Below are positions 2,736-38,078 of a DNA stretch of 38,078 bases, one piece after another. A program made the position numbers and the translations under genes. Source of the stretch: a virus; the IMG/VR virus record IMGVR_UViG_3300033141_003329, positions 1-38,078 of that record; one strand, written 5' to 3'. The notes under the pieces are model-generated. The model was not told the DNA's origin. It saw nothing but the letters and a program-made list of their open reading frames with translations, and did no database searches. How positions within the stretch are numbered: position 1 is the first letter of the stretch; each line of letters starts with the position of its first letter.

Positions 2736-2765
2736 TTGACAGGAACATGAGGATCATGGTAGGAT
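2736..2765 (+). promoter_or_regulatory. sigma-70-type promoter, TTGACA-18-TAGGAT
   Basis: A perfect -35 TTGACA (2736-2741) is followed 18 bases later by TAGGAT (2760-2765). Transcription would start at about 2771-2773, which coincides with ATG 2773 of the downstream gene, so a leaderless transcript is possible. Confidence 0.45.
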
Positions 2766-2937: not shown

Positions 2938-2946
2938 GGCGGCGGT

Positions 2947-2975
2947 AGAGATTCCTCGAGGGACTCGGAATGACG
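2947..2975 (+). repeat. dispersed palindromic repeat, family A
   Basis: A copy of the GATTCCTCGAGGGACTCGGAATGACG element starts ten bases after the stop of the preceding small gene. A second partial GGGAATGACGATCG follows at 2983-2996. It has the same orientation as all the other copies. Confidence 0.85.
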
Positions 2976-3112
2976 ATCGTCGGGGAATGACGATCGGGTG
3001 GGGCCGGGGGTAGTCGAATAGCTCGGCGTGGCCTGTGATGGGAGCGCTGTTCTCCAATTGGAGAGCGGCGCTTGTTTGTTTGTGGTGGCCTTGGGCAATA
3101 GAGGACGTGTGT

Positions 3113-3574: not shown

Positions 3575-3589
3575 ATGGGGACGTGGGAG

Positions 3590-3643
3590 AGATTCCTCGA
3601 GGGACTCGGAATGACGGGCTTGGGGGACTCGGGATGACGAGTG
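3590..3643 (+). repeat. dispersed palindromic repeat, family A, with extra right half
   Basis: A full GATTCCTCGAGGGACTCGGAATGACGGG copy is followed by a second right half (GGACTCGGGATGACGAG). The ATG of that right half, at 3634, is the likely start codon of the terminase small subunit. Confidence 0.85.
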
Positions 3644-4209
3644 TGGTGGCATTGCCGGGTATGGAGGCGATGGTGACGCCGGATCCGTTGGCGGAGGCGC
3701 AGCTACGGAGCGCGGAGGCGCGGCGGATATTCGAGGTGGAAGAGGGGTACGCGCCTTGGATGGAGGATTACTGGCGGCTGATCGGCGAGGGGTGGCCGTG
3801 GCGGCAGGCGGTGTACATGCTGTGGGCGGGTTTGCCGGCGGCGCGGCGACGGCCTCGGACGCAGGGCGAGCTGGCGGTGGAGATGCTGGGTCTGACGTCG
3901 GACCGGAGGATCTGCGAGTGGAAGGACAATCCGGCGATGGACGCAGAGATCGCCAAGCTGTCGGCGTCGATTCTGAGCAAGCGAAGGGCGGCGATCTATG
4001 ACGCGTTGGCGGAGAGCGCGTCGAATCCGAGCCCGAGGGCGAATTCGGACCGGCGGTTGGCGTTGGAGATGATGGGGGATTACAGTCCAAAGGTGGGGGT
4101 GACAGTGGTGCCGGGGGCTGTGGCGGAGGATTTGGACGAGTTGAGCGCTGAGGAGTTGCGGGCGCTAGAGTTGGGGCCGGGGGGAGATTCCTCGAGGGAC
4201 TCGGAATGA
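3634..4209 (+). CDS. terminase small subunit
   Basis: The product (191 aa from ATG 3634) is helical. It has a central helix-turn-helix-like region (LAVEMLGLTSDRRICEWKDN) and the later segment DALAESASNPSPRANSDRRL-ALEMMGDYSP, a pattern I know from small terminases, which bind phage DNA and recruit the large subunit. It sits directly upstream of terL. A GTG at 3571 overlapping the previous stop is an alternative start, but its first residues would be translated repeat. ATG 3634 itself lies in a family-A repeat, and the last residues (DSSRDSE) and stop are read from another repeat copy at 4193-4210, so this gene is bracketed by repeats that provide both ends. Confidence 0.75.
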   Translation: MTSVVALPGMEAMVTPDPLAEAQLRSAEARRIFEVEEGYAPWMEDYWRLIGEGWPWRQAVYMLWAGLPAARRRPRTQGELAVEMLGLTSDRRICEWKDNPAMDAEIAKLSASILSKRRAAIYDALAESASNPSPRANSDRRLALEMMGDYSPKVGVTVVPGAVAEDLDELSAEELRALELGPGGDSSRDSE

Positions 4210-4249
4210 CGGGCTCTCTGGTTGGAATGACGGGCTAGGGGCGGAATGA
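4193..4249 (+). repeat. dispersed palindromic repeat, family A, with two partial right halves
   Basis: GATTCCTCGAGGGACTCGGAATGACGGG is followed by GGTTGGAATGACGGG and GGCGGAATGAG. The first TGA ends the small terminase and the last ATG (4246) starts the large terminase. Confidence 0.8.
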
Positions 4250-5877
4250 GCGAGGAGCTGCGGGAGAGGGCGCGACGGGAGCGGGTGCGGCGAGCGCTGG
4301 CCAGGAAGGTGTACGGCGACTATGCGCGGTATGTGTGGCCGGGCTGGGTGGACGCAGCGCACCATGGCCTGTTGGCCGAGTACCTGCAGGAGGTGGAGCG
4401 GTACATTGCGTCGGGCGGCAAGGAGGGGATTGGGCGGCTGTTGATTTTTATGCCTCCCCGGCACGGCAAGAGTTTGAACGCGAGCGTGCTGTTCCCGACT
4501 TGGTTTTTGGGACGGAATCCGGACAAGCGGGTGATCATTGCCTCCTACAACGCGAGCCTGGCGATGGGGTTTTCGCGGGAGGCGCGGAACCTGATGCAGG
4601 GGATCCGGTACCGGGCGGTGTTTGGCGACAAGAGCGGTAGGGCGGACGAGATCCGAATTGCGGACGACAGCCGAAGCGTGGAGGCGTGGAATCTGCACGG
4701 GCACAAGGGGGGCGTGGTGGCGGCGGGGGTGGGCGGCGGGATTACGGGCAAGGGCGCGCACCTGTTCGTCATCGACGACCCGCATAAAGACCGGGCGGAC
4801 GTGGAGAGCAAGACGCGGCGAGACGCGGTGTGGAATTGGTGGACGTCGACGGCGTACACGCGGTTAGAAAACGGGGCGGCGGTGATCGGGATGCTGACCC
4901 GGTGGCACGGCGATGATTGGTCGGGGCGGTTGATCCAGGCGATGGTGGACGAGAGCGCGGAATTGACGGACCGGTGGAAGATCCTGTGTCTGCCGGGGAT
5001 CGCCGAGGAGTGGGCGGAGGAGATCGAGCGCGAGCGGGTGATCGAGTCGGCCAAGAGCGGGTGGTTCATGAGTGTGGACCCGCTGGGGCGCCTGCCGGGC
5101 GAGGCGCTGTGGCCGGAAAAGTACGACGCCGAGGCGCTGGCCACGATTCGGGCGAACATTGGGGGGTACGACTGGGACGCGCTGTACCAGCAGCGGCCAC
5201 GGCGGATCGAGGGGGCGCTGATCAAGGCGCATCTGATCGAGGTGGTGGACCAGCTGCCCGAGGGGCTCAAGATGGTGCGCTATTGGGATTTGGCGGTGAG
5301 CGGCAGGGCGCGGGCGGACTATATCGTCGGCGCCAAGGGGGGGCGGCAAGATGGTCGCCTGTACCTGGCCGACATCCGGCGCATTCCCGGACCGTGGGCG
5401 GACGCGCGGCCCAAGATGAAACGGGTGATGCTGGCTGACGGGGCCGAGGTCGAGCAGGGGATCGAGGTCAGCGGGCAGCAGGGGGGCTATTACCAGGAGC
5501 TGCAGCGTGACGAGGACCTGCAGGGGGTGACACTCCGGGCGGTCAATCCGCAACAGATTGGCAACAAGGAGGTCCGCGCGAACTTGTGGGCGAGCCGGAT
5601 CGAGGACGGGCTGGTGCATATGCTCAAGGCGGGGTGGAATGACGAGTTTGTGGCCGAGTGTTTGGCTTTTCCACGCGGGGCGCACGACGACCAGGTGGAC
5701 GGGGTGAGCGGGATCAACCAGATGCTGCCAGGGTCGATGCGGATGAGCGATGTACCGCAGGCGGCGAACGTGGCGAGCCGGTGGGACCCGTTCGCAGAGA
5801 TGGGGATGCCGGGCGAGCGAGACCTGGCGACCGTGAGTGGGAGACCGAGTGGGAGACCGAGTAGATGGCGAATCTGA
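4246..5877 (+). CDS. terminase large subunit (ATPase and nuclease)
   Basis: The 543-aa protein carries the packaging-motor motifs in order: Walker A-like PPRHGKS (70-76), Walker B LFVIDDPHKD (173-182), and a coupling motif MLTRWHGDD (216-224). The C-terminal RNase H-like nuclease has its first Asp in YWDLAVSG (D348) and a late Asp cluster in FPRGAHDDQVDG (481-485). Length and order are normal for TerL of the TIGR01630-like C-terminal type. It pumps DNA into the prohead through the portal and cuts it at the end of packaging. AGGGG just upstream serves as ribosome site. Its 3' end overlaps the portal start by 13 bases and contains a 12-base tandem duplication. Confidence 0.96.
   Translation: MSEELRERARRERVRRALARKVYGDYARYVWPGWVDAAHHGLLAEYLQEVERYIASGGKEGIGRLLIFMPPRHGKSLNASVLFPTWFLGRNPDKRVIIASYNASLAMGFSREARNLMQGIRYRAVFGDKSGRADEIRIADDSRSVEAWNLHGHKGGVVAAGVGGGITGKGAHLFVIDDPHKDRADVESKTRRDAVWNWWTSTAYTRLENGAAVIGMLTRWHGDDWSGRLIQAMVDESAELTDRWKILCLPGIAEEWAEEIERERVIESAKSGWFMSVDPLGRLPGEALWPEKYDAEALATIRANIGGYDWDALYQQRPRRIEGALIKAHLIEVVDQLPEGLKMVRYWDLAVSGRARADYIVGAKGGRQDGRLYLADIRRIPGPWADARPKMKRVMLADGAEVEQGIEVSGQQGGYYQELQRDEDLQGVTLRAVNPQQIGNKEVRANLWASRIEDGLVHMLKAGWNDEFVAECLAFPRGAHDDQVDGVSGINQMLPGSMRMSDVPQAANVASRWDPFAEMGMPGERDLATVSGRPSGRPSRWRI
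5835..5858 (+). repeat. 12-bp tandem duplication at the terL 3' end
   Basis: GAGTGGGAGACC occurs twice head to tail (5835-5846, 5847-5858), adding the repeated tetrapeptide SGRP near the TerL C-terminus just ahead of the portal start codon. It is a likely slippage product. Confidence 0.9.
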
Positions 5878-7898
5878 GACCGGACCTCGGCGAGCGCGGA
5901 AGCACGGGCCTGATGCGGTTCTCGGGCCAGGTGATGGAAGCGTACATCTCGAAATTGCACTGGCCGAGCGCGTACGCGATCTATGACGTGATGCGGCGGC
6001 GCGATCCGACTGTGGGGGCGATGGAGCACGCGCTGATCCTGCTGGCCAGGACGGCGAGCTGGTACGTGGAGGTGGGCGGGCAGCGGACGGCGGACGACGA
6101 GCGGGCGGCCGAGTTTGTGGAGCAGTGCATCGGCGATATGAGCCACACGATCGAGGACGCGATCGAGGACGCGTTGGGCTGCGTCCTGCTGGGGTGGAGC
6201 TGGCACGAGCTTTGCTATAAGCGGCGCCAGGGCGCACGGGGAAAGATCGCGAGCCAGTACAACGATGGGCTGGTCGGGTGGCGCAAGTGGGCGCCCAGAC
6301 GGCAGTCGTCGTACAGCCATTGGGAGTTTGACAGCGCGGGCGGCGTGGAGGCGATGGTGCAGCGGGCGGCGCCGACGTACGACGAGGTTTCGCTGCCGAT
6401 CGGCAAGGCGCTGCATTTTCGCGGTCGACGGGATGGGAACAGCCCAGAGGGCAAGGCGCTGTTGGAGAACCTGTACGAGCCGTGGTATTTTCTGAAGAAT
6501 CTGCACGTCATCTCGGGCATTGGCTGGCAGCGGACGTTTGTGGGACTGCCGGTATTCGAGTTTGAGGAAAAGCCGGACGCTGACGACGTGGCGGCGGTCC
6601 AGGAGACGGGCGAGGCGCTGGCGGTCGACGAAAAACAGTACGTCAGTGTGCCCAAGGGGATCAAGTTCCGGCTGGAGGCGGCGGCCAACTCGGGCGCGGC
6701 GGCCCTGCTGGAGCAGATGAAGTACGAGCGGCGGATGATGTTCCAGACGCTGCTCGCCGATTTCCTGGATCTGGGCACGGGGCAGACGGGGTCCTGGGCG
6801 TTGGGGTCGGACAAGAGCCAGCTTTTCCTGATGGCGGTGGATGGGATTCTGGACCGGATGGCGAGCGTGATCAACCGGTTCGGGGTGAGCCGACTGATGG
6901 AATACAACCGGCTCGCGTTCCCGGGGATGACCGGGCAGCCGCAATTGGCACACAAGAAGGTGGAAAAGCCGGGGATGGGACAGCTCGGGGCGTGGCTGCA
7001 GCAGGTGGGGCAGCTCCTCAACTGGACCGAGGAGGACGAGACCTGGCTGCGGCATCGGGCAGGGATGCCGACGGCGACGGTGGGCACGGGGCCACAGTTG
7101 AGCGAGCCCTCCCCCCAGCAAAGCGGGTCGGGGGGAGGGGCCAGAGTGCGCGAATTGGCTCGGGGACGGCTCGACGAGGTGGACCAGGCCGAGCAGGAGC
7201 TGGTCGAGGCGATTGAGGACATCCTGGACGAGCAGCAGGAGCGGGTGGTCAAGCGCGCGCAGCAGGACGAGGACATTGCCCTCGACGACCTGTTCTGGGC
7301 GACCGAGGCCCAGGTCCTGACGGCGGGGTTCATCCCGGCGCTGGTCGGCGCGCTGATGCTCCTGGGCGGGGCGCGGGCGGATGCGCTTGATTTCGATTGG
7401 GCGGACGCCAACGCCGAGGCGCTGGCCTGGGTGCGCGAGTACACGTTCGAGCTGGTCGGGAATCTAAACGCAACGAGTCGGGAGACTCTGCGACAGGCAA
7501 TGACTACGTGGATCGAAACGGGCGGCGACGTGGAGGATTTGCGCAAGATGCTGGCGCCGACCTTTGGGGCCAAACGGGCGCAGCGGATCGCGGCCTCGGA
7601 GGCGACGCGGGCCAACGCTGAGGGCGCGGCGCTGATCGGCGGCGAGCTGGGCATCGTGTACGCCTACAAGCCGCCGACGCGGACCAACTGCCGGTGCTGG
7701 GTGGTGGAGCGACAGTTGCCGGACGGGAGCTGGGTCGGGGTGTGGCAGACGGCGCGAGACGAGCGGGTGAGCCGGAAACCATTGGAGACGCCGTGGGGAG
7801 TGGTGGACGGGGACGCGGCGCTGCAGGGGGTGATCGTGTCTGAGGGAGAGCACCTCGGGCGGCGATTTGACGAGGTGCGGCGGGAGGTGGCAACGTGA
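5865..7898 (+). CDS. portal protein (DUF935/Mu gp29-like) fused to MuF-like head morphogenesis domain
   Basis: Residues 1 to ~405 match the portal of the Mu gp29/DUF935 type (MRRRDPTVGAMEHALILLAR at 43-62, then VIN RFGV and the AFPGM region around 336-355). Residues ~430-677 look like a MuF-type head morphogenesis domain with the usual AKRAQRIAASEATRANAEG and a final NCRCWV cysteine motif. In Mu these are two separate genes. Here they are joined in one 677-aa chain, and the joint (residues ~413-425, SEPSPQQSGSGGGA) is encoded by a GC-rich palindromic repeat at 7107-7140. The portal forms the ring through which DNA enters; MuF-type proteins are minor head components acting in assembly. The gene overlaps terL, and its stop directly abuts a family-A repeat. 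Confidence 0.9.
   Translation: MANLRPDLGERGSTGLMRFSGQVMEAYISKLHWPSAYAIYDVMRRRDPTVGAMEHALILLARTASWYVEVGGQRTADDERAAEFVEQCIGDMSHTIEDAIEDALGCVLLGWSWHELCYKRRQGARGKIASQYNDGLVGWRKWAPRRQSSYSHWEFDSAGGVEAMVQRAAPTYDEVSLPIGKALHFRGRRDGNSPEGKALLENLYEPWYFLKNLHVISGIGWQRTFVGLPVFEFEEKPDADDVAAVQETGEALAVDEKQYVSVPKGIKFRLEAAANSGAAALLEQMKYERRMMFQTLLADFLDLGTGQTGSWALGSDKSQLFLMAVDGILDRMASVINRFGVSRLMEYNRLAFPGMTGQPQLAHKKVEKPGMGQLGAWLQQVGQLLNWTEEDETWLRHRAGMPTATVGTGPQLSEPSPQQSGSGGGARVRELARGRLDEVDQAEQELVEAIEDILDEQQERVVKRAQQDEDIALDDLFWATEAQVLTAGFIPALVGALMLLGGARADALDFDWADANAEALAWVREYTFELVGNLNATSRETLRQAMTTWIETGGDVEDLRKMLAPTFGAKRAQRIAASEATRANAEGAALIGGELGIVYAYKPPTRTNCRCWVVERQLPDGSWVGVWQTARDERVSRKPLETPWGVVDGDAALQGVIVSEGEHLGRRFDEVRREVAT
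7107..7140. repeat. GC-rich palindromic repeat, family B, in the portal/MuF linker
   Basis: CCCTCCCCCCAGC (7107-7119) and GGGTCGGGGGGAGGGG (7125-7140) form an imperfect palindrome. It is read in frame without a stop and falls at the boundary between two domains that are separate proteins in Mu. Confidence 0.75.
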
Positions 7899-7950
7899 GA
7901 GATTCCTCGAGGGACTCGGAATGACGGATATGGGGGCCTCGGAATGACGG
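7899..7950 (+). repeat. dispersed palindromic repeat, family A
   Basis: The full GATTCCTCGAGGGACTCGGAATGACGG copy begins immediately after the portal stop codon and is followed by a second right half (CCTCGGAATGACGGG, about 7937-7951). Only 22 further bases separate it from the next start. Confidence 0.9.
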
Positions 7951-7972
7951 GTTCCTGGTTGGGAGTGATGCC

Positions 7973-8392
7973 GTGACGCTCGACGTCGGGATCCGGGTGG
8001 AGGGGCTGGACGAGGCGGTGCGGTTGCTGGCCCGGGTGCCCTCGGCGCTGGACTCTAAAATGGGCCGGGCCATGAGGGAGATCCTGGGGCTGTACGCGGG
8101 GGACCTGGCCGAGTACCCGAGCGCGATTCCGGGAACGCGATACCGACGGACGGGATTGCTGGGGCAGAGGTGGGCGGCGGCGACGCGACAGGTGTGGCAG
8201 CGCGGCCCGAACCGCCTGCAGGCGCGGATGCGCAATACGCGGCCGGGGGTGGTGTACGTGCAGAGCGATGAGCACCAGGCGGATGTGCATCGCGGGCGGT
8301 GGCGGACGGCGGAGCGGGTGGTAGAATCGCGGCGAGGCGAGGTGGAGAACTTGGTGCGGGCGGCGGGGCAGGCGGCGGTGGAGGGACGATGA
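7973..8392 (+). CDS. virion morphogenesis protein, Mu gpG / HK97 gp10-like
   Basis: GTG 7973 has GGGAG at 7961-7965. The 139-aa product starts with a strand and helix pair (VRLLARVPSALDSKMGRAMR) and contains the family-typical segment GTRYRRTGLLGQRW. Proteins of this type act in tail completion or head-tail joining. The gene lies between the portal-MuF gene and the protease/scaffold gene, the place where Mu-like phages carry gpG. The stop overlaps the next start (ATGA 8389-8392). Confidence 0.7.
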   Translation: MTLDVGIRVEGLDEAVRLLARVPSALDSKMGRAMREILGLYAGDLAEYPSAIPGTRYRRTGLLGQRWAAATRQVWQRGPNRLQARMRNTRPGVVYVQSDEHQADVHRGRWRTAERVVESRRGEVENLVRAAGQAAVEGR

Positions 8393-9669
8393 GCGAGCGT
8401 TGTGATTTTCTCTTTGTGGAGCTGGCAGAGGGCAAGCCGGTCGAGATTCTGCGCACGGGTGAGTTTGTGGACATGAACGGGCAGGATGTAGTGATCGGCG
8501 ACGAGGACCTCGACCAGTTTGTGGCCAATTTCGAGACGGGCGCGGCAGAGATCGAGATCCCGGTCGACGTGGACCACCAGCACGCGGAGGCGGTGGGCTG
8601 GGTGCGGCGGATCTGGCGCGAGGGGCAGCGGCTGCTGGCCAGCGTCGAGTGGAACGAGATCGGGAAACAGTTGGTCGGCGACAAGGTGTACCGCTACATT
8701 TCGGCGACGATCAACCTGGACGGCAAATTCATCCGCGCGATCACGCTGACGAACTGGCCGGCGGTCAGCGGGTTGGCGGCGGTGGAATTGAGCGAGGGGG
8801 CGAGGACGTACGGGCGGTCCGAGGGGCTGATGGATCGGTTGCGGGACGCGCTCGATGCTGCTCGGAACGCGTGGGTTAGGCTATCGGCTGTACGTGCGCA
8901 GCAAGCGGCTTTGGCCGACGGCATACCGGGCTCGGTGCGCATCAGCGAATACCTGCAGGCCCGGATCCACAAATCGTTTACCAGCATCGCCGACGAGATG
9001 GCAGCCAGCGGACTGCTGACCGTCGACGAGCGCAAGCAGTTGAGCGCGGCAATCGGTGCTGCGCTGGAAGTGTTTTCCACCGAGGCAGGCGAGGCCGGGG
9101 AGCGGATTATCGAGGTGCCCCGTCCTGAACTGTATTACTATCGTAGCGCCGGGCCAGGCCCGGCAGAGGAGGCAGAAATGACGGACAAGCTGACTCCCGA
9201 GGAGCGGGCCGAGATGGAGGCCCAGCTTCGCGAGGAACTGGAGACGGAAGCGCAGCGGGAAGCCGAACTGCGCAAGCAAGTGCGCGCCGAACTGCGACCA
9301 CAGATCGAGGCCGAGCTGAGGGCGCGAATGGAGCGGCGCCAGGGGCTGGTCGAGTTTGCCGAGCAGGTGTGCGGCGGCGAGGCCGGACTGAGCGCGTCGC
9401 CGGAGGACGTGGTCAAGGCGCTGGAGAACCTGGACGACGAGCAGCTCGTCGAGGTTAAGGGCTTGCTGGAGAGCAAGGTCGTCGATTTCAGCGAGCACGG
9501 CAGCCAGCGCGAGGGCGCGGCGGGGACGGCAGCGGTGCCGGACGAGTACCGGCCCAGCCTGCGTCGCTGGGTGGAAGCGGGGCAGCCGCTGGACGAGTAT
9601 TTCCAGTTGGTGGCCCCCGAGTTGGACCCGAAGAGCCTGGACCTGAGCGAGTACGTCCAGGACGAGTAG
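8389..9669 (+). CDS. Mu I-like prohead protease with C-terminal scaffold
   Basis: The start ATG 8389 overlaps the previous stop. Residues 1 to ~140 (IEIPVDVDHQHAEAVGWV and YISATINLDGKFIRAI) match the Mu protein I protease domain. Residues ~145-255 form an extra helical region not needed in the classic protein. The last ~160 residues are a highly charged, coiled-coil scaffold (EERAEMEAQLREELETEAQR). In Mu, I cleaves scaffold during prohead maturation, and scaffold Z is made from an internal start of the same gene. The same arrangement is visible here (see 9178). The full protein is 426 aa. Confidence 0.85.
   Translation: MSERCDFLFVELAEGKPVEILRTGEFVDMNGQDVVIGDEDLDQFVANFETGAAEIEIPVDVDHQHAEAVGWVRRIWREGQRLLASVEWNEIGKQLVGDKVYRYISATINLDGKFIRAITLTNWPAVSGLAAVELSEGARTYGRSEGLMDRLRDALDAARNAWVRLSAVRAQQAALADGIPGSVRISEYLQARIHKSFTSIADEMAASGLLTVDERKQLSAAIGAALEVFSTEAGEAGERIIEVPRPELYYYRSAGPGPAEEAEMTDKLTPEERAEMEAQLREELETEAQREAELRKQVRAELRPQIEAELRARMERRQGLVEFAEQVCGGEAGLSASPEDVVKALENLDDEQLVEVKGLLESKVVDFSEHGSQREGAAGTAAVPDEYRPSLRRWVEAGQPLDEYFQLVAPELDPKSLDLSEYVQDE
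9178..9669 (+). CDS. internal-start scaffold protein (Mu Z-like, 163 aa)
   Basis: ATG 9178 lies in frame inside the protease gene at codon 264 and is preceded by AGGAGG at 9167-9172, five bases away, a stronger site than that of the full-length gene. The product would be the coiled-coil scaffold alone. A hairpin-capable GCCGGGCCAGGCCCGGC lies just upstream (9149-9165). This parallels the nested I/Z arrangement of Mu. No direct evidence of expression is available. Confidence 0.7.
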   Translation: MTDKLTPEERAEMEAQLREELETEAQREAELRKQVRAELRPQIEAELRARMERRQGLVEFAEQVCGGEAGLSASPEDVVKALENLDDEQLVEVKGLLESKVVDFSEHGSQREGAAGTAAVPDEYRPSLRRWVEAGQPLDEYFQLVAPELDPKSLDLSEYVQDE

Positions 9670-25781: not shown

Positions 25782-25828
25782 TAGCGGGGCTAGGATTCGA
25801 ACCTAGGACCTCCGGGTTATGAGCCCGT
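25782..25828 (-). other. attP core: 3' half of tRNA-Met (anticodon CAU)
   Basis: Read on the minus strand, the segment has an anticodon loop CTCATAA in a CGGG/CCCG stem, a T-arm CTAGG-TTCGAAT-CCTAG and an acceptor 3' strand CCCCGCT followed by A. The 5' half upstream does not pair: no AGCGGGG acceptor strand exists, and the D-arm (TAGCTCTGCGGGTAC) lacks its second strand. Only the 3' half is intact, as expected for a phage attP that restores the tRNA on integration. CCA is not encoded. Confidence 0.8.
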
Positions 25829-25915
25829 GTACCCGCAGAGCTACCACGGCACGTCCGGTTCCGCGATCTTTCGTACCCGACGGACAGCAATGCTACAATA
25901 CCCGACGAGCGGCGG

Positions 25916-30522: not shown

Positions 30523-33258
30523 ATGGCCGACGTCGAGGAACTCAAGGGGCGGGTAGACCTGCGCACATTGTGCGAGCGCAGGTGGGGAATGCGGTTTTCA
30601 TATGCTGGTCGCGGGCGCCTCAAGGCGCGTTGCCCGCTGCACAACGAAAAGACGCCCTCATTCATTCTGTACGAGGATGGCGGGTGGTTCTGCTTTGGCC
30701 AGTGCAACAAGGGGGGCGATGTGTTCGACCTCGTGGAGGCCAAGGAGCACCTGGATTTCCGAGATGCGCTACGGGTGGTGGCGGACGCGGCGGGGATCGA
30801 GCTGCAATCGTTCGACGAGGGCGACCGGCAGGCGTACCGGGAGCGGCGCGCGGCGGCGACGACGCTCCGGACGGCGATGGGGATCTTGGAGCGCCAGCTG
30901 TGGGGCAAGCCGGAGGCGTTGGGGTACTGTCATAGCCGTGGGTGGACGGATGAGACGATCAAGGCGGCTCATTTGGGGTACGCGGCGGGGCGCGAAACGT
31001 TGCGCCGGGCGCTTGCTGCTGCTGGGGTGGATCTGCGGGCGAAGGTTGCGCAGGCGCCGCTGGCGATTCCGGAGGGGATGCTGGTGTACCCGCATATCGA
31101 GCGGGGCCGGGTGACGTATTTGAGCGGGAGGCTCGCGAGCCGGGAGCGCAAGGGACACTACAACCCCCCCACTGAGGTGGCGGGGCCGAGGCAGGTGTAT
31201 TGGAACTGGGTGTCGGGGCCAGAGGTGGTGGTGGTCGAGGGGCAGGCGGATGCGATCACGTTGGGGCAGTGGGGAATCCCAGCGGTGGCGATGGCGGGGT
31301 GCGGCCTGGCTGCTGCTGCTGAGCGCGGGGCGCTGGGCAGGCTGGCCAAGGCGACGGTGGTGACGGTGTGGCCTGACGCGGACGGCAGGACGGACGTGAC
31401 GGGCCTGGGGAGCGCGTTGGGGCCGCTGCTGCGGGTGACTGCTGCTCCTCCGGGGGATGCGAAGGACGCGAACGATTGGCTGCAGGCAGGGGCGACGGCG
31501 GAAGAGGCTGAGGAGCTCTTGGACCAGGCGGAGCCGTGGGTGCTGCTGCTGGCCAGGGATGCGGGGCGGGCGCAGAATGGGAACCGGGAGAGCGAGCTGC
31601 GCCAGGTGTTTGCCGAGATCGCCAAGTTGGACGAGTTTTCGGTGGCGACGTATCGGCAACGGCTGTGCGAGGTGATGGGGTTGGGGGTCAGGCAGTTCAA
31701 TGGGCTGCTCAAATCACTACGCGAAGAGGCAGCGAAGAGTCAGTCGGCGGCTGAGGGGTCGGTGCTGCCGGTGTCGATGGTGGGCGGGTACATCAATGAT
31801 ACCTTGTTCGAGTTGGTGTACGAGATGCCGGAGGACAGCCAGGGGGTGAACGGATACGCCGGCGGGAAAACGTGGTTTGCGGTGCGGACGCCGGAGGGGG
31901 AGATCACACGGATGGAGGCGATCGAGACGGACTATGGGGTGCGGTACGTACCGATTCTGCCCAGCAAGTTTCTGGCGGAGAGGATCGTCGAGTTTCCTTC
32001 GGCGATCGGCCCGGTCAAGTCGAGCCGAGAGTTGGTGACGTTGATCCGGCAGACGATCCACAAGTACGTCGAGATTGATATGTTTTTCGAGACGCTGGCG
32101 GCATACTATGTGCTGTTTACGTGGCTGTATGACTGTTTCAATACGGTGCCCTACCTGCGGGCGCTGGGTGACTATGGGACGGGGAAGAGCCGGATGAAGG
32201 ACGTGATCGGGGCGATGTGCTACCGGCCGATCAAGGCGAATGCAGGGGCAACGATCTCGCCGATTTTCAGGACGCTGGACCGATTCAGGGGGACGCTGCT
32301 GTTCGACGAAGGCGATTTCAGGTACAGCGACGAGAGCAATGATTTTGTAAAATTGTTCAACGTCGGATACCAGCGCCGACAGGGGGTGATTCTGCGCGCG
32401 GGGGCCAAGGAGACGGGATTCGATCCAGAGGTGTTTGTGGTGTACGGCCCCAAGATTTTGGCGACGCGGCGCGAATTCGAGGACAAGGCGTTGGAGAGCC
32501 GGTGTCTGACGAAACGGATGGAGGCGGGGTTGACCCGAGAGGACATTCCGCTGGAGATGCCAAACGCGTATTATGACGAAGAGGCGCCGGCGATCCGGAA
32601 TATGTTGCTACGGTACAGGTTGACACATTGGAAACCAGCGATGGAGCCAGACGAGCGGGATCTGGACCGGTCGATCGAGCCGCGGTTGAACCAGGTGACG
32701 ATGCCGTTAAAGGCGATCGTCGACGAGCCAGAGTTGAGGGAGGAGATCAACCGCTTCATCCAGGAATACAACCGGGAGCTGATCGCGGACCGGGGGCTGA
32801 CGGCGGCGAGCAAGGCGCTGGAGGTGATCCTGGCGCTGGGCGAGGGGGGCGATCTGACGATGAAGGCGATCTGCGACCGGGTGAACGCGCTGATGGACTA
32901 TGAGAATTATGGCGAGGAGGCGGATGAGGAGGACGAGGGCCGCCGGAACCGCAAGCGGATGACAGCGCGGGGGGTGGGGGCGATCTGTAAGAACAAGCTG
33001 GGCCTGCAGCGGAGGCGCGAGGCGAAGAGCCGGCGGTATTCGCTGGTGTGGGACGAACACCGGATCCGGGCGCTGCAGAAACGATTTGGGTTGGATGAGG
33101 AGCTGCTCACGCAGACGCGGTTGACGTTGGATGCGGCGTCGCTGGCTACGCCGGAACGGGAGGAGCCTCGTTTGCCGTTCCCGGATGATGAGGCCCCCCA
33201 CCCGACCTCCCCGCCTGAAGCTGGGGGAGGGAAAGAGCGGGAGGAGTTTTACTTTTGA
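30523..33258 (+). CDS. primase-helicase (CHC2 zinc finger, TOPRIM, P-loop ATPase; 911 aa)
   Basis: Residues 1-95 form a DnaG-type zinc domain with C37, H40, C57 and C61 (CPLH and CFGQC; the second pair is C-x3-C rather than the usual C-x2-C). A TOPRIM core follows (VVVVEGQADAI at 235-245, DADG at 285-288). The C-terminal half has an ATPase with Walker A GDYGTGKS (549-556) and Walker B LLFDEGDF (592-599), not of the DnaB type. Together they suggest primer synthesis coupled to unwinding at the phage origin. The last ~20 residues (from APHPTSPPEAGGGKE) are read from a family-B palindrome. It is followed by a coupled small gene and the origin-like region. Confidence 0.88.
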   Translation: MADVEELKGRVDLRTLCERRWGMRFSYAGRGRLKARCPLHNEKTPSFILYEDGGWFCFGQCNKGGDVFDLVEAKEHLDFRDALRVVADAAGIELQSFDEGDRQAYRERRAAATTLRTAMGILERQLWGKPEALGYCHSRGWTDETIKAAHLGYAAGRETLRRALAAAGVDLRAKVAQAPLAIPEGMLVYPHIERGRVTYLSGRLASRERKGHYNPPTEVAGPRQVYWNWVSGPEVVVVEGQADAITLGQWGIPAVAMAGCGLAAAAERGALGRLAKATVVTVWPDADGRTDVTGLGSALGPLLRVTAAPPGDAKDANDWLQAGATAEEAEELLDQAEPWVLLLARDAGRAQNGNRESELRQVFAEIAKLDEFSVATYRQRLCEVMGLGVRQFNGLLKSLREEAAKSQSAAEGSVLPVSMVGGYINDTLFELVYEMPEDSQGVNGYAGGKTWFAVRTPEGEITRMEAIETDYGVRYVPILPSKFLAERIVEFPSAIGPVKSSRELVTLIRQTIHKYVEIDMFFETLAAYYVLFTWLYDCFNTVPYLRALGDYGTGKSRMKDVIGAMCYRPIKANAGATISPIFRTLDRFRGTLLFDEGDFRYSDESNDFVKLFNVGYQRRQGVILRAGAKETGFDPEVFVVYGPKILATRREFEDKALESRCLTKRMEAGLTREDIPLEMPNAYYDEEAPAIRNMLLRYRLTHWKPAMEPDERDLDRSIEPRLNQVTMPLKAIVDEPELREEINRFIQEYNRELIADRGLTAASKALEVILALGEGGDLTMKAICDRVNALMDYENYGEEADEEDEGRRNRKRMTARGVGAICKNKLGLQRRREAKSRRYSLVWDEHRIRALQKRFGLDEELLTQTRLTLDAASLATPEREEPRLPFPDDEAPHPTSPPEAGGGKEREEFYF
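33196..33240. repeat. GC-rich palindromic repeat, family B, at the primase 3' end
   Basis: CCCACCCGACCTCCCCGCC and AGCTGGGGGAGGGAAAG form an imperfect palindrome that is translated as the end of the primase-helicase. The reading frame stays open through it. Confidence 0.6.
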
Positions 33259-33593
33259 GCGAGAGTGAGCGGTTGGAGGAGTATTTGGGGGCGCTGCGCT
33301 CGCAGGGGGTGCGGCTGACGGTGGAGGTGGTGGAGGGGGAGGAGCGGCTGAAGGCGAGCACGCCTCGGGGGGGGATGCGACAGCGGATGGTGGCGGCGAT
33401 CCAGAGGCTGCGGGGGAAGATATTGGAGCACGGGTACTGGTGGCGGGATGAAGACGGCCAGGTGACGTGGTGGGGGCGGTGCGCAGAGTGCGGGCAGTTG
33501 GTGCAGGGCGCTGGCCAGGGGTTGGAGCCGCCAGAGGCAGGGACGGTGGTGTGTGGGTGGTGCTATGCTGCGAAACGTTCGAAACGTTCGTAA
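33255..33593 (+). CDS. TubC-like helical domain plus zinc ribbon (112 aa)
   Basis: TTG 33255 overlaps the primase stop and has GGGAGGAG upstream. Residues ~5-60 (YLGALRSQGVRLTVEVVEGE, then MRQRMVAAIQRLRGKILEHG) resemble the TubC-type N-terminal domain often encoded beside phage and plasmid primases. CAEC and CGWC (~75-104) form a zinc ribbon. It is likely a replication accessory protein. Its final codons (KRSKRS) are read from 9-bp AACGTT iterons of the origin-like region. Confidence 0.65.
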   Translation: MSESERLEEYLGALRSQGVRLTVEVVEGEERLKASTPRGGMRQRMVAAIQRLRGKILEHGYWWRDEDGQVTWWGRCAECGQLVQGAGQGLEPPEAGTVVCGWCYAAKRSKRS

Positions 33594-33704
33594 CGTTGGC
33601 CGGGGACTAGGGGGGTAAAATAAATGTTTTTCGGGTTTTTGGAAATTACAAATATTTTTAGGGGGTTGGCTCCGGAGAACGTTACGAACGTTACGAACGT
33701 TACG
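33572..33704. other. origin-like core: AT-rich segment between two 3 x 9-bp iteron arrays
   Basis: Three 9-mers centred on AACGTT (33572-33598, GAAACGTTC twice then GTAACGTTG) precede an AT-rich stretch (33616-33660), unique in this GC-rich window. Three perfect copies of AACGTTACG follow (33678-33704). Further AACGTT sites lie at 33828, 33836 and 33909. Iterons next to an AT-rich unwinding element directly after the primase-helicase genes are the usual layout of a phage replication origin. Confidence 0.65.
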
Positions 33705-33712
33705 ATCTGGGA

Positions 33713-33797
33713 TGGAGAGATGCCTCGAGGGACTCGGCGGACCTCGGCATGACGGTCTTTGGGGGTGGGGATTGCTTCGCTACGCTCGCAATGACGG
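33713..33797 (+). repeat. dispersed palindromic repeats, family A, two variants
   Basis: A degenerate copy (GATGCCTCGAGGGACTCGG..., ending CGGCATGACGG, 33716-33755) is followed by the variant ATTGCTTCGCTACGCTCGCAATGACGG form (33771-33797), whose arms ATTGC/GCAAT form a stem. They lie inside the origin-like region. Confidence 0.8.
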
Positions 33798-33914
33798 TTT
33801 TGGGGTCGTTTGGTGGTCTTGGTACGTAACGTTGTAACGTTAAGAACATATATGTTGAGTTCAGCGGGATCGGGGATGCGATCGGGTGGAGGGGGGCGAG
33901 ATTTGCGAAACGTT

Positions 33915-34058
33915 CGAAACGTGTCATGTAGTGACACGTTTCGCAAGAGGTGTCTTGCGTGTGTGACACGTTTCGCAAGAGGTGTCTTGCGTGTGTGACA
34001 CGTTTCGCAAGAGGTGTCTTGCGTGTGTGACACGTTTCGCAAAGAGGACTTTGCGAGG
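33915..34058 (+). repeat. 32-bp tandem hairpin array with leading inverted repeat
   Basis: Four tandem 32-bp units start at 33931, 33963, 33995 and 34027. Units 1-3 are identical; each has a stem CGCAAGA-GGTG-TCTTGCG. Unit 4 is diverged but keeps its stem by compensating changes (CGCAAAG-AGGA-CTTTGCG). Just upstream CGAAACGTGTCA (33915-33926) is inverted to TGACACGTTTCG (33932-33943). There are no spacers, so it is not a CRISPR array. It may be part of the origin or a multi-hairpin leader of the next operon. Confidence 0.85.
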
Positions 34059-34095
34059 AAAACAGGTGGTTGACACGTCTCGGAAAGGAGGTCCG

Positions 34096-34197
34096 GTGAG
34101 TGTTTGGGTGACGATCGCGGTGGGAATCGGGTGTCTGTTTGTGGGGATGATGCTGGGGGTGCTGATGATGTGCATCCTGAATGTGTCACGGGGGTGA
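34096..34197 (+). CDS. single-pass membrane peptide (33 aa), possible small holin
   Basis: GTG 34096 has a near-perfect Shine-Dalgarno AAAGGAGGT (34084-34092). Almost the whole peptide is a membrane helix (VTIAVGIGCLFVGMMLGVLM) with a short basic end. It is coupled to the next gene (GTGA overlap), which is coupled to a glycosidase-like gene, so it may be the holin of a compact lysis cassette. Confidence 0.6.
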   Translation: MSVWVTIAVGIGCLFVGMMLGVLMMCILNVSRG

Positions 34198-34394
34198 GGG
34201 TGCGGCATTCGTCGTCGGGGCATCGGGGGTACTGGGTGCCAGGGACGGCATGGGAGCTGCGGGAGGCGCTGCGCAAGGCGGGGGTGCGGCGGATCAGCGG
34301 GCGGCCGCTGGGACGAGTGCGGAAGAGGCAGTTGGTGGCGGTGTGGTGCGCGATGATGGAGCGGCGGGAAGAAAGAGGAAAGGACCTAGCATGA
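34194..34394 (+). CDS. small basic protein (66 aa)
   Basis: GTG 34194 overlaps the stop of the membrane peptide. The product has a basic helical part with an Arg-rich loop (TAWELREALRKAGVRRISGR) and a second helix (VAVWCAMMERREE). It could bind nucleic acid. Its stop overlaps the start of the glycosidase-like gene. The family is not recognised. Confidence 0.5.
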   Translation: MRVRHSSSGHRGYWVPGTAWELREALRKAGVRRISGRPLGRVRKRQLVAVWCAMMERREERGKDLA

Positions 34395-35410
34395 CAAACT
34401 ACCTGCACGGTATGACGGGCGCGGGCGGGGCACACCTGATGGGTGACAAGCCCGGGTGGCTTCTTCTGATCAATGAGATTGGACGGGACCCGGCCAATAT
34501 ACACGGCGTCGACTTTAGGCCCTACGCGGATCGTGGGTTCTGGGTGATCAGCAGGCTGCAGAACGGCTGGGGCAGCGCAGGGACGATCCCGCTACCGGCC
34601 TACTATGCCGACTATGTGAAGCGAGCGATCAATTTTGTCCAGGCCAGCCCCGGTTGTCACGTATGGCAATGGGGCAACGAGTTGAACCATCCACAGGAGC
34701 GTGCAGAGTTCAAGCCGATCTACCCATCGGAGTACGCCCGGCTGTACTGCGAGATGTGGAGGCGATTGCACGACCTGCCTGGCCACGAAGAAGATCAGTT
34801 GATCACAGCACCCATTGCGCCTTGGAACAACCAGACCGCCTATCCCGCGAACCCGTCTGGTGACTGGATCGTCTATTTCCAGGACGTTCTGTCTCACATC
34901 ACGGACGAGATCGGGACCAAAGAGGGCGAGACGGTAGATGCCATTGGCCTCCACGCCTACACGCACGGCGTAAGTCCAGCGCTGATCACGAGCGAGCAGC
35001 GGATGGATCCCCCGTTCCAGGAGCGGAGGTTCCAGTTCCGCACCTACCAGGACTTTATGCTGGCCATCCCCGAGGCGTTGCGTCGGGTGCCGGTTCACAT
35101 CCTAGAGATCGACCAGGATGAGCCCTGGTGGGACGGGCAGAACGGATGGTCACCAGCTGCCATCACGGAGATCGGCAAGGGCTGGAATCAGACACCCGGC
35201 AACCAGCAGATCGTCTCGCTGGTATGGTTTCGGTGGGAGGGGGACAGGTGGCACATTGCCAACAAGCCCCGGCTCCAGGACGACATCCGCGCTGCTTTTG
35301 CTCTCGGTTACACGTGGGGGCAGGGGCCGCCAGTACCGTCGCCAAGCGTAACGTACCGCTGTCCTGGCTGTGGGCGAGAGATGGTGGTGCGAGTCAAGGA
35401 GGCAGGGTGA
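34391..35410 (+). CDS. TIM-barrel glycoside-hydrolase-like protein, candidate endolysin (339 aa)
   Basis: The pattern LHGMTGAGGAHLMGDKPGW, RLQNGWGSAGTIPLP, the probable acid/base in WGNELNHP (E97), HAYTHGVSP and the probable nucleophile in HILEIDQDEPW (E239) matches a clan GH-A-like domain I know from Chloroflexota and their phages. Two glutamates at strand ends are the expected catalytic pair. The C-terminus adds a short CPGCG motif. Position after a small membrane peptide suggests the lysis enzyme cutting the host cell wall sugar chain, but a virion-independent polysaccharide hydrolase is also possible. No signal peptide is visible, so it would need a holin for export. Confidence 0.65.
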   Translation: MTNYLHGMTGAGGAHLMGDKPGWLLLINEIGRDPANIHGVDFRPYADRGFWVISRLQNGWGSAGTIPLPAYYADYVKRAINFVQASPGCHVWQWGNELNHPQERAEFKPIYPSEYARLYCEMWRRLHDLPGHEEDQLITAPIAPWNNQTAYPANPSGDWIVYFQDVLSHITDEIGTKEGETVDAIGLHAYTHGVSPALITSEQRMDPPFQERRFQFRTYQDFMLAIPEALRRVPVHILEIDQDEPWWDGQNGWSPAAITEIGKGWNQTPGNQQIVSLVWFRWEGDRWHIANKPRLQDDIRAAFALGYTWGQGPPVPSPSVTYRCPGCGREMVVRVKEAG

Positions 35411-35637
35411 TGGATGTGGGGCGGTTGAGGCGGGTGGTGGAGCGGAATCGGCGGGTGGGTTGGGTGGCTGTGGTGATGACGACGGATGAGTTGGCGGGGT
35501 TGTTGGAGGTGATCGATGGGAAGGGAAAGGCAGGAGGCGGCGGAGCTGCGGGGGTTGCGGGAGTTGGTTCGGGAGCAGTTGCGGCAGTTGAACAAGGTAC
35601 GGGGGTTGGCGAGGAGGGCGCGGTTGGCGTTGTGTGA
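35410..35637 (+). CDS. small protein overlapping the next gene (75 aa)
   Basis: ATG 35410 overlaps the previous stop (TGATG). The first ~40 residues look real (MDVGRLRRVVERNRRVGWVA, then MTTDELAGLLEVIDG). The remainder (KGKAGGGGAAGVAGV...) is low-complexity and runs in a second frame of the following gene, which has the better coding look. A frameshift near 35515 would join the good part to the next gene; alternatively the two genes truly overlap by 122 bases. Confidence 0.45.
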   Translation: MDVGRLRRVVERNRRVGWVAVVMTTDELAGLLEVIDGKGKAGGGGAAGVAGVGSGAVAAVEQGTGVGEEGAVGVV

Positions 35638-35725
35638 CCATGATTTGGAGATGGTGCGCAACTTCCTGAGTCAGATCGCGGATGTTAGGTCGGGGGGGAG
35701 AGATTCCTCGAGGGACTCGGAATGA
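35516..35725 (+). CDS. small helical basic protein (69 aa)
   Basis: GGAGGTGATCG lies directly before ATG 35516, the best anti-16S match in the window. The product is helical and basic (EAAELRGLRELVREQLRQLN, then RRARLALCDHDLEMVRNFLS). Its last residues (DSSRDSE) and stop are read from a family-A repeat, as in the small terminase. The family is not known. Confidence 0.6.
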   Translation: MGRERQEAAELRGLRELVREQLRQLNKVRGLARRARLALCDHDLEMVRNFLSQIADVRSGGRDSSRDSE

Positions 35726-35800
35726 CGGGCTTTGGGGCTCGGAATGACGGGCTTTGGGGCTCGGAATGACATGCTTTGGGACTCGGAATGACGGGTTGGG
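35699..35800 (+). repeat. family-A repeat with four tandem 22-bp right halves
   Basis: After GATTCCTCGAGGGACTCGGAATGACGGG, the unit CTCGGAATGACGGGCTTTGGGG recurs at 35716, 35738, 35760 and 35782 with exact 22-base period. The first unit contains the stop codon of the preceding gene. It is a local amplification of half a repeat. Confidence 0.9.
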
Positions 35801-35834
35801 ATAGGTTGGACTAGGCCGAGAGGCGGGGAGGTTT

Positions 35835-36476
35835 GTGGTGGAGTTGACGACGTACAAGGTTCGGGTGACGTTTATTACGCCGGTGTTGGGGAGCCAGCCG
35901 ACGCGGGATATTGCGGCGCAGTATTTGGCAAAGAAACACGGGTTCGAGCTGGCGGAGGACGAGGTGGAGAGCCTGCCGGACGCGCTGGATGCAAAGACGA
36001 CGGCGTTTCATCGGGTTCCGACGCCGTCGGGGTGGACAGAGTACGACGAGGACGGGCGGGTGCCGGGGTTGTTCAATTACCAGGTGAAGGGGTTTCTGAA
36101 ACACGCGGGGAAGGTGTTGAACGCGCAGCTCAAGAGCGGGGGGAAGCCGCTGCGGGCGTTGAGGAGCAAGGTGGGGAATCTGGTGTTTGTGGACCCGAGG
36201 CAGATCCCGCTGCATGTGCCGGCGGACGGGGAGCTGGACGTGATGGAGCGGCCTCTGCGGGCGCAGACGGCGCGGGGGGAGCGGGTGGCGATCGCGAGGA
36301 GCGAGGTGCTGCCAGAGGGGACGTGGTTTGAGGCGGGGCTGTCGGTGTGGCCGGGGCAGATCACGCAGGAGGTGTTGGAGGCGCTACTGGATTATGGGAT
36401 GTACCAGGGCATCGGGCAGTGGCGGTCGGGGGGGTGGGGGCAGTTTCGGTACGAGCTGAGCCTGGAAGACGTGTAG
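35835..36476 (+). CDS. RAMP-like phage protein of unknown function (213 aa)
   Basis: GTG 35835 or 35838 follows GGGAGG. The protein begins with a strand and Gly loop (YKVRVTFITPVLGSQPT), has NYQVKGFLKHAGKVLN, a strand block (GNLVFVDPRQIPLHVP), the signature ERPLRAQTARGERVAIARSE, and ends with a Gly-rich loop GIGQWRSGGWGQFRYEL. I recall the same pattern in a family widespread in phages of Firmicutes, without a known function. The final Gly-rich loop and strand order resemble RAMP-type RNA-binding proteins of CRISPR systems, but no CRISPR array or other Cas gene is present. It may bind nucleic acid during replication. Confidence 0.7.
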   Translation: MVELTTYKVRVTFITPVLGSQPTRDIAAQYLAKKHGFELAEDEVESLPDALDAKTTAFHRVPTPSGWTEYDEDGRVPGLFNYQVKGFLKHAGKVLNAQLKSGGKPLRALRSKVGNLVFVDPRQIPLHVPADGELDVMERPLRAQTARGERVAIARSEVLPEGTWFEAGLSVWPGQITQEVLEALLDYGMYQGIGQWRSGGWGQFRYELSLEDV

Positions 36477-36733
36477 CGACCGGCATGGTGAAGTCGCGTT
36501 CAGTAGGGTGGCGCGGGGGCGCTGTTTGGTTCGGAAGGGTAAGGGCTGCGTATTGTTGAGTCACGTGAGAGTATCGCGTTGTTTGGCGGCGCGGGGGGCT
36601 GTGTATTGTTGAGTCGCGTGAGCGTGTTGTGTTGCAACGTGCTGTATGGCGCGGGCGAGGAGGGGTGAGGTGATGCGTTGTTTGGCGGCGGCAGAGGGGC
36701 GTTTGGCGTTGAGGCGATCCGTGGAGGTGTGGG
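36477..36733. repeat. intergenic region with 24-bp direct repeats
   Basis: No convincing gene lies here. CTGYGTATTGTTGAGTCRCGTGAG occurs at 36546-36569 and 36599-36622 (two differences, 53 bases apart), and GCGTTGTTTGGCGGCG recurs at about 36576 and 36675. The spacer is G-rich and may be regulatory or a degenerate former gene. Confidence 0.6.
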
Positions 36734-37081
36734 ATGGAGCGACGGTGCAGCAGGTGCGGGGGGCGGGCGCGGTATTTGGTGGGCCTGCAGGTGGATGTGT
36801 TGGACCTGGAGACGGTGCGGGACCGAAAAAAGATGATCTCGGTGGCGCTGTGCGAGGAGTGCGAGGGGCTGAGCCGGGAGTTTTTGAGGCGGGACGCGGG
36901 GCAGCGTCGACGGGTGGCTGACGCGCTGTGCCAGGAGGTGAAGCGGGGGTTTCCGTTGCAAAGCCGGGAGCACGGGCGGGCTGCGGCCAGTTCCCCCCAC
37001 CCAGCCTCCCCCAGTCCCGGGCGGCCAGGGGCCAGCAGCCTGGGGGAAGGGAAGAGCCGTGGCAGATTGGGGGGAGAGTAG
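36734..37081 (+). CDS. zinc-ribbon small protein with repeat-derived tail (115 aa)
   Basis: GGAGGT (36723-36728) precedes ATG 36734. CSRCGG (5-10) and CEEC (~40-43) form a four-cysteine zinc site, followed by a helix (FLRRDAGQRRRVADALCQEV). The last ~35 residues (from AAASSPHPASPSPG) are read from a family-B palindrome and are probably unstructured. The family is not identified. Confidence 0.6.
   Translation: MERRCSRCGGRARYLVGLQVDVLDLETVRDRKKMISVALCEECEGLSREFLRRDAGQRRRVADALCQEVKRGFPLQSREHGRAAASSPHPASPSPGRPGASSLGEGKSRGRLGGE
36989..37062. repeat. GC-rich palindromic repeat, family B
   Basis: TTCCCCCCACCCAGCCTCCC and CAGCCTGGGGGAAGGGAAG form an imperfect palindrome around CCCGGGCGGCCAGGGGCC. 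It is read through as the C-terminal tail of the zinc-ribbon protein. Confidence 0.7.
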
Positions 37082-37211
37082 AGTTGTGCGTTGTTCGGCG
37101 AGAGTTGTGCGGAGCAGAGAGCAGTGACGCAGAGGTCAAGCAAGGCACAGTGCGGAATCGTAGGGGTGTCGTCGTGAACGGTATGGTCACGCGAGGGCAG
37201 GAGGAGGTAGG

Positions 37212-37292
37212 GTGATTTATCTGGTGGCGTTTGTGGGGTTTGCGCTGTGCGCGCTGTTGATGGCGTGGGGGATGAGGGGCCGAGGCGGGTGA
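37212..37292 (+). CDS. single-pass membrane peptide (26 aa)
   Basis: AGGAGGTAGG lies just before GTG 37212. The peptide is almost only a membrane helix (MIYLVAFVGFALCALLMAWG) with a short Arg/Gly end. It is too short for most gene finders. The good ribosome site is the main support. Confidence 0.45.
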   Translation: MIYLVAFVGFALCALLMAWGMRGRGG

Positions 37293-37334
37293 AGTTGACT
37301 GTGGTGGTGCTGTTTGCGGCGGTGGAGGTGGACG

Positions 37335-37481
37335 ATGGATTCGAGCAAGGGGCAGGTGGTGCGGCGGGTGCCGTGCGAGGTGTACTCGCGGATCGTGGGG
37401 TATCTGCGGCCGGTGCAGAATTGGAATAAGGGGAAGCGGCAGGAGTGGTTGGAGCGGAAGGTGTATCGGGCGGAGGTATAG
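37335..37481 (+). CDS. standalone NrdD-tail-like protein (48 aa)
   Basis: ATG 37335 is preceded by GGAGGTG. The product is MDSSKGQVVRR then VPCEVYSRIVGYLRPVQNWN and KGKRQEWLERKVYR. This resembles the C-terminal glycyl-radical segment of anaerobic (class III) ribonucleotide reductase, with R-x-V-G-Y holding the candidate radical Gly 22 and the downstream WNKGK..E...RKVY. No other part of the reductase is encoded in the window. It may be a spare radical domain, as YfiD/GrcA is for pyruvate formate-lyase; that is inference. Confidence 0.65.
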   Translation: MDSSKGQVVRRVPCEVYSRIVGYLRPVQNWNKGKRQEWLERKVYRAEV

Positions 37482-37707
37482 AACTGTGTTGTCGTGTTAG
37501 GGTGTCGTGAAGTGCCGAATTGTGGGGTGAGGGCAAGGTGGCGCATCGAAACGTACGGCGGGGGTATGGTAGAGTCAGGTGGCGTATCGTAGGGCGCGGT
37601 GGGGGTCTAGTAGAGTTCTGTGCAGCCGGGTTGGGTGGCGGCGGGAAAGATTCCTCGATGGACTCGGAATGACGGTCGGAGAGGAATGATGGGTTGGGAG
37701 GTGCGGG
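37482..37707. other. intergenic G-rich region with family-A repeat
   Basis: No gene is supported here. A family-A copy with one change (GATTCCTCGATGGACTCGGAATGACGG, about 37651-37677) lies near its end. Two loosely similar segments (AGGTGGCGCATCG at 37536 and AGGTGGCGTATCG at 37578) suggest old duplications. Confidence 0.5.
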
Positions 37708-38010
37708 ATGCGGGATGGGCGGGGGCGGGTGGTTACGGTCAGGGATGGACAGTTCAGGCGGACAAAGCGGACGCCGCACGAGGCGGGGCGGGCGGCGCGG
37801 ACGGTGGGGACGACGTTTCCGGCGCCAGAGTGGCGGGATGCGGTGCTGGCGCTGGCGCAGCGGTGGGGGTGCAGGCCGGGGGACGTGATGGTGTACGCGG
37901 TGAGCCTGCTGATGGCGGGGGTGGAGAGCGGGGAGGTGGAGCGGCCTGCGGGTGAGGTGACGTGGTGGATGCGGACGGGCGAGGGGTTTCGGCTGCCTTG
38001 GGAGCCGTGA
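37708..38010 (+). CDS. ribbon-helix-helix-like protein (100 aa)
   Basis: GGGAGGTG precedes ATG 37708. After a basic N-terminus, TVGTTFPAPEWRDAVLALAQ and RPGDVMVYAVSLLMAGVE have the strand-helix-helix order of RHH DNA-binding proteins. The C-terminus (MRTGEGFRLPWEP) lies in the terminal repeat and is seen again, slightly changed, at the left end of the window. It may regulate the adjacent late operon. Confidence 0.6.
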   Translation: MRDGRGRVVTVRDGQFRRTKRTPHEAGRAARTVGTTFPAPEWRDAVLALAQRWGCRPGDVMVYAVSLLMAGVESGEVERPAGEVTWWMRTGEGFRLPWEP

Positions 38011-38078
38011 TGAGGTCGGGGGTTTGGCGGGTTGGGGCGCAGCGGGGCTCCTGGCGGGGGTTGTGGGGCGGACGGTGG
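37953..38078. repeat. right copy of imperfect terminal direct repeat
   Basis: The segment matches 1-123 except for a 3-base-longer in-frame variant near 37971-37979 and two substitutions. It shows that the window closes on itself. Confidence 0.9.

Follow-up and report, generated by a model that had tools for sequence, protein, structure and literature searches.

Replication origins of the SaPI/PICI type are located 3′ of the initiator gene and consist of two sets of iterons around an AT-rich region, an arrangement said to occur in no other known replicon (PMC6092414). The initiators that act at these directly adjoining sites are hexameric AAA+ type helicases with a C-terminal iteron reader (PMC6092414, PMC7581432), and both SaPI Rep and SCCmec Cch2 use a C-terminal domain to read repeats 3′ of their own genes (PMC7581432). 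Cch itself is self-loading and binds direct repeats 3′ of its own gene via its C-terminal domain, and the Cch2 site has been described with AAGTG direct repeats. An annotated origin is also present in a complete tailed phage, Streptococcus (S. thermophilus) phage Sfi21, where a 302-bp region 3′ of the putative primase orf382 contains inward-facing 8-bp iterons over a long AT-rich core (TTAGTTACTTAGTTACT–AT-rich–GTAACTAAGTAACTAA). In satellite phage P4, primase, helicase, and origin binding are united in a single polypeptide, the alpha protein, and the iterons are found at two distant sites (ori and crr). As described below, positions 33572–34055 of a phage genome very probably constitute a replication origin of the SaPI/PICI and Sfi21 kind.

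The window analyzed here is the whole of the IMG/VR virus record IMGVR_UViG_3300033141_003329 (38,078 bp). Despite its classification as linear, the last 103 nt (37976–38078) repeat nt 21–123 at 98%, and the record therefore represents a genome of about 37,955 bp that is nearly complete and either circular or terminally redundant. Based on its structural genes (terminase large subunit, portal, head protease, major head protein, and tail genes, PHROG), a tyrosine integrase, and the rest of its gene content, which includes a D12 adenine methyltransferase, this genome is that of a temperate tailed phage. In contrast to the PICIs, which are satellites without their own capsid and tail genes, the window carries both gene classes and represents a whole tailed phage. 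An Rfam tRNA match at 25782–25850 on the minus strand (32.8 bits, no call by ARAGORN) overlaps the part of the integrase ORF that encodes the N terminus and is possibly an attP copy of a host tRNA.

The center of the locus, module A, is built from two iteron arrays that face each other across an AT-rich core (Table 1). An initial annotation, made from the sequence of the window alone, had described two arrays of three 9-bp iterons flanking the only strongly AT-rich stretch in the window. Both arrays are found, and the runner-up 45-bp stretch reaches 67% AT compared with 82% in the core. The left array has the order GAAACGTTC-GAAACGTTC-GTAACGTTG, and, when treated as 33-nt arms, the two arrays are 88% complementary. 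With the core aligned, the site takes the form GNAACGT(T). The motif AACGTT is present 12 times in the 38 kb, relative to about 4 expected from base composition, and nine of these 12 sites fall within 33574–33914. When such regions were shuffled locally 1600 times, an inverted pair of tandem repeats never arose, which indicates that the inverted arrays are not due to chance. In agreement with the initial annotation, the region directly follows the primase-helicase and its partner ORF, and the first iterons are translated as the end of that ORF, which stops within the third iteron (...AKRSKRS, stop).

Table 1 Features of the putative origin and its neighboring genes.
Feature	Position	Strand	Description
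Primase-helicase, presumed initiator	30523–33258	+	911 aa; CHC2 zinc finger, TOPRIM-type primase, AAA+ motor, C-terminal winged helix
Predicted winged-helix domain of primase-helicase, proposed iteron reader	32935–33087	+	AlphaFold pLDDT 85.9
Partner ORF	33255–33593	+	112 aa, C-x2-C...C-x2-C motif; final codons coincide with the first iterons
Module A left iteron array	33572–33598	+	3 × 9 bp (GNAACGTTN), pointing right
AT-rich core, proposed DNA unwinding element	33616–33660		82% AT, the window maximum
Module A right iteron array	33677–33704	−	3 × 9 bp, GAACGTTAC ×3, pointing left
Dispersed phage repeat copy	33709–33737		GAGAGATTCCTCGAGGGACTCGG family, between modules A and B
Module B	33826–33849	+	Two iterons 8 bp apart (33826–33841), degenerate third GAACAT (33844–33849), then TATATG
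Module C right-pointing pair	33907–33922	+	Two iterons, at 33907 and 33916
Module C left-pointing part	33931–34055	−	Four iteron cores at 32-bp spacing, each preceding an 18-nt hairpin
33-aa single-span membrane peptide	34096–34197	+	Opens downstream operon; Shine-Dalgarno AAAGGAGGT closes origin region

The zinc finger of the primase-helicase matches a Pfam family (Zn_ribbon_DnaG, 1.8e-14) and PHROG DNA primase families cover residues 4–341, as expected for a phage primase of the DnaG type (CHC2 plus TOPRIM) with a zinc finger and a DnaG-like core. The AAA+ motor has the Walker A sequence GDYGTGKS. In the AlphaFold model of the helicase half (pLDDT 75.6), Foldseek matches were obtained to MCM, the NrS-1 CTR, vaccinia D5, and SCCmec Cch (5dgk), with E-values of about 1e-4 to 1e-3; since the TM-scores are low (0.3), the predicted likeness of the motor to MCM, NrS-1, D5, and Cch is at the family level and not close. 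No Pfam match to DUF927 or HTH_56 is present in the window protein, and alignment to DUF927-HTH_56 proteins with hhalign gave a probability of 0.4% and thus no sequence-level match to Cch. By sequence, the presumed initiator is not a member of the DUF927/Cch family, and its predicted likeness to that family is at the fold level only. The last 120 residues are predicted to form a winged helix (helix-helix-strand-strand-helix) that matched no Pfam family and has weak Foldseek matches to the winged helices of ORC/Cdc6, to MarR-type regulators, and to TubR. In the LxL motif of this domain, His accompanies iterons that start with G and Gln those that start with T; because the tree needs just two changes to account for this pattern, the apparent co-variation of reader and iteron is a lead rather than evidence.

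The weak match to TubR raises the question of whether the locus is an iteron-based partition site, as in phage-plasmids, where arrays of this type serve as centromeres. This reading is considered extremely unlikely: no partition ATPase or tubulin-like gene was detected among the window proteins scanned, an integrase is present, and inward-facing arrays around an AT-rich core are not the plan of a centromere.

A search with the primase of the window alone retrieved no viral relatives. A terminase search led to two contigs with full-length primase-helicases of 43–46% identity, both of which have 8–9-bp tandem pairs that face inward over an AT-rich stretch just 3′ of the primase-helicase gene, with different letters (GGAACTTTA vs TGAACTTTA). 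A profile built from these three primases brought the set from IMG/VR to a total of 17 primase-helicase loci, the majority full-length. Arrays of the same plan are observed in L069–L074, L076, L078, and L085, as inward-facing iterons of 8–10 bp immediately 3′ of the primase-helicase gene. The arrays are degenerate in L075, L079/L080, L081/L083, and L084, and L077 has no arrays within reach. The array-bearing relatives share 30–70% identity in the primase-helicase (70% for L069, 43–52% for most others). Absence of the arrays from close relatives with the same primase had been named in advance as grounds to abandon the origin reading; L069 and most of the others carry them. The iteron letters vary from phage to phage, as in GGAACTTTA, TGAACTTTA, TGTAAACAT, and GTAACTTGT: L070 has GGAACTTTA, L071 TGAACGTCA, L072 GGAACRTT, L073 TGTAAACWT, L074 TGAACTTTA, L076 GTAACTTGT, L078 GGAACTTAT, and L085 TGAACAT. 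An AT-rich core occupies the same position between the arrays in most relatives and is weak in L071 and L073 (43–46% AT).

The array starts 14 to 314 bp past the stop codon of the primase-helicase in most relatives, and in the window the partner ORF lies between the two. A homolog of this ORF is found in L069. Because L070, L071, L073, L076, and L078 have no gene between the primase and the arrays, the partner ORF appears to be dispensable for the origin plan and the primase-helicase is the sole constant neighbor of the arrays. To score the arrangement strictly, inverted pairs of exact 6-mers in tandem 8–10 bp apart were counted in 700-bp segments of 15 phages. The score peaks right 3′ of the primase in nine of the 15, including the window, and none of the 2375 other segments of these phages scores as high; five have degenerate arrays (L075, L080, L081, L084, L085) and one has none (L077).

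As in origins of the SaPI/PICI/Sfi21 type, two sets of short iterons thus face each other across an AT-rich region immediately 3′ of the initiator gene, both in the window and in its relatives. The assignment as an origin is based on the recurrence of this plan 3′ of the same gene while the letters differ, together with the peak of the strict score, the 0/1600 shuffles, the sole constant neighbor, the predicted motor fold, and the annotated origin of Sfi21. The match to iteron origins noted in the initial annotation is accordingly borne out by the relatives and by Sfi21. Its remark that the repeat and array were of an unfamiliar type does not extend to the layout, which is that of a known type of origin.

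Downstream of module A, the further AACGTT sites and the tandem array of hairpins noted at the outset are present as modules B and C. The right-pointing sites of module B start at 33826 and 33834, and a similar arrangement is seen in L069, L070, L071, L073, L074, L076, and L078. In most relatives, this second module is located about 105–150 bp past the first right-hand array; it begins with two or three additional iterons pointing right, often continues with a TATATRTGAG-like stretch, and ends in left-pointing iterons near the ribosome-binding site of the next gene. Two complete modules are retained in L074, which suggests that the origin was doubled and has eroded elsewhere.

The hairpin array of the window comprises 3.6 copies of a 32-bp unit (33931–34047, 98% matches), with the 18-nt hairpins at 33942, 33974, 34006, and 34038. 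Each unit contains one inverted iteron core, ACGTTTC (33936, 33968, 34000, and 34032). At the corresponding position, the closest relative, L069, has a single left-pointing site. The array would thus not be a separate element and appears instead to be the left-pointing half of the conserved second module, locally multiplied in this phage. In the fourth hairpin, both arms are changed and the stem is kept (CGCAAGA/TCTTGCG to CGCAAAG/CTTTGCG), a hint that the hairpin as such is important. The stem and the DNA folding of 33897–34063 (z = −8.85) would also be consistent with module A alone being the origin and the hairpin array a separate device such as a terminator, a cruciform primer site, or a copy-control locus. 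This alternative is judged unlikely, as the iteron core is present in every 32-bp unit, relatives have one or two left-pointing sites at this place without hairpins, and no terminator-like T-run was found. Rfam and tRNA scans detected nothing in the origin region.

The hairpin motif is present in no other viral contig and once, likely by chance, in 84,980 genomes, and the idea that the unit is a dispersed host repeat was dropped on these grounds. The same counts bear on whether the locus could be a packaging (cos/pac) site or a dispersed repeat of host or mobile origin. The region does contain one dispersed phage repeat, at 33709–33737, between modules A and B. On the circular genome, however, some 8 kb separate the locus from the terminase, and each phage genome has iteron arrays at a single place, so that such a reading is scarcely credible.

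Modules B and C abut the next operon, which counts against the origin reading to the extent that part of the sites may serve transcription. In its extreme form, this argument would make the arrays operators only, through which a phage regulator controls the operon downstream of the primase while the origin lies elsewhere. Both modules are found just upstream of the ribosome-binding site of the next gene in several phages, and a candidate regulator is encoded in L075 (9090–9557), where a stand-alone 155-aa zinc-ribbon and winged-helix protein adjoins the degenerate iterons; it is a paralog of the C-terminal domain of the primase-helicase (37% identity, E 2e-18). Operators do not, however, take the form of inward-facing arrays around a 70–100-bp AT-rich core that is kept despite the change in letters. 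In addition, the primase-helicase is the only constant neighbor, the same plan is that of the annotated Sfi21 origin, and neither a sigma-70-like promoter nor a terminator was detected in 33200–34450, which is a weak test. A purely regulatory function is therefore regarded as improbable.

For the origin reading, a mode of action can be proposed by analogy. The C-terminal winged helix of the primase-helicase encoded upstream would bind the 9-bp iterons, and, as for SaPI Rep, two oligomers may assemble on the inward-facing arrays, flanking the AT-rich core, which they would melt. The AAA+ motor would then unwind the DNA and the fused TOPRIM primase lay primers, as its domains suggest. The second module (B and C) would provide extra initiator sites beside the downstream operon, probably for copy control, assistance, or autoregulation; its left-pointing half is the part that appears to have been multiplied into the 32-bp hairpin array in this phage.

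Several differences from the described systems are apparent. SaPIbov1 and SaPI5 have primases of the archaeo-eukaryotic type, whereas that of the window is of the DnaG/TOPRIM type and is fused to the helicase; the window also has other iteron letters and an additional iteron module. Sfi21 differs in helicase family, iteron letters, and host, and lacks the 32-bp hairpin array. With Cch and Cch2, the window shares the motor fold match to 5dgk, and has two inward-facing arrays around an AT-rich core in place of direct repeats. The two modules of the window are adjacent and both 3′ of the gene, unlike the sites of P4. Since Sfi21 is already a whole phage with this plan, what is new relative to the open-licence PMC literature searched is the phage lineage with a fused initiator of the DnaG type, the doubled module, and the expanded array.

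Inverted tandem iterons also occur no more than a few hundred bases 3′ of a primase or helicase ORF in contigs whose primase matches only in the zinc-finger or TOPRIM part. These arrays follow DUF927 and HTH_56 (Cch-type) helicases in L096 and L100, a VapE-like helicase in L103, a TOPRIM-D5 protein in L104, and CHC2-TOPRIM proteins in L089 and L090. A scan for iterons with a 9-bp period gave 39 matches, most of them coding repeats or unrelated phages. Because other phage contigs carry the plan 3′ of helicases of the DUF927-Cch, VapE-like, and D5 types, and Sfi21 has it too, it is not exclusive to PICIs.

A broader proposal, plausible but held at somewhat less than even confidence, is that uncultivated temperate phages encode at these loci a new family of single-protein replication initiators, in which a DnaG-type primase, an MCM/Cch-like motor, and a new winged helix are combined to read fast-diverging 9-bp iterons of the KNNAACNT type. 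The origin would be doubled (A plus B/C), with the second half grown in the window into a 32-bp hairpin array that acts as a copy-number or transcription switch, and the inverted-iteron plan would serve at least four unrelated types of phage helicase and so would be a general plan of phage origins instead of a hallmark of PICIs. Given its occurrence outside the PICIs, the plan no longer counts as evidence for their common ancestry. Inward-facing 8–10-bp arrays just 3′ of an initiator helicase could serve as a rule for finding origins in uncultivated phages, and the relatives may provide matched pairs of reader domain and iteron set, one in each phage, as a natural series from which a recognition code could be derived.

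An inflection in GC skew at the arrays had also been anticipated. The detrended cumulative GC skew turns (minimum) at 30672 instead, which is the switch in gene direction; confounded in this way, the skew is uninformative or mildly against the origin reading. Among genes on the same strand, GC skew at third positions decreases the farther a gene lies from the arrays (Spearman −0.51, p 0.02), a trend that is confounded by gene modules. For the genes in 176–9669 and 33255–38010, this skew is about 0.7–0.8 near 33–38 kb and 0–1 kb and has dropped to roughly zero by 10 kb; gene direction does not account for this gradient.

Finally, other repeats are present in and around the region. The dispersed repeat GAGAGATTCCTCGAGGGACTCGGAATGACGG has eight copies in the genome (2594, 2940, 3581, 4176, 7891, 33709, 35692, and 37639), as well as a 22-bp tandem version at 35712–35795, and the copy at 33709–33737 is probably outside the origin proper. 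Within 33755–33800, 29 bp (GGATTGCTTCGCTACGCTCGCAATGACGG type) are identical in Helicobacter canis phage records, and this stretch looks like a widespread bacterial repeat. In a set of viral contigs (L011, L012, L016, L020, L034, L038, L039, and L041), three copies of GTAACGTTT adjoin an A/T-run and are accompanied by more GTTAC sites; this family is possibly another origin of the inverted-iteron plan with unrelated genes.
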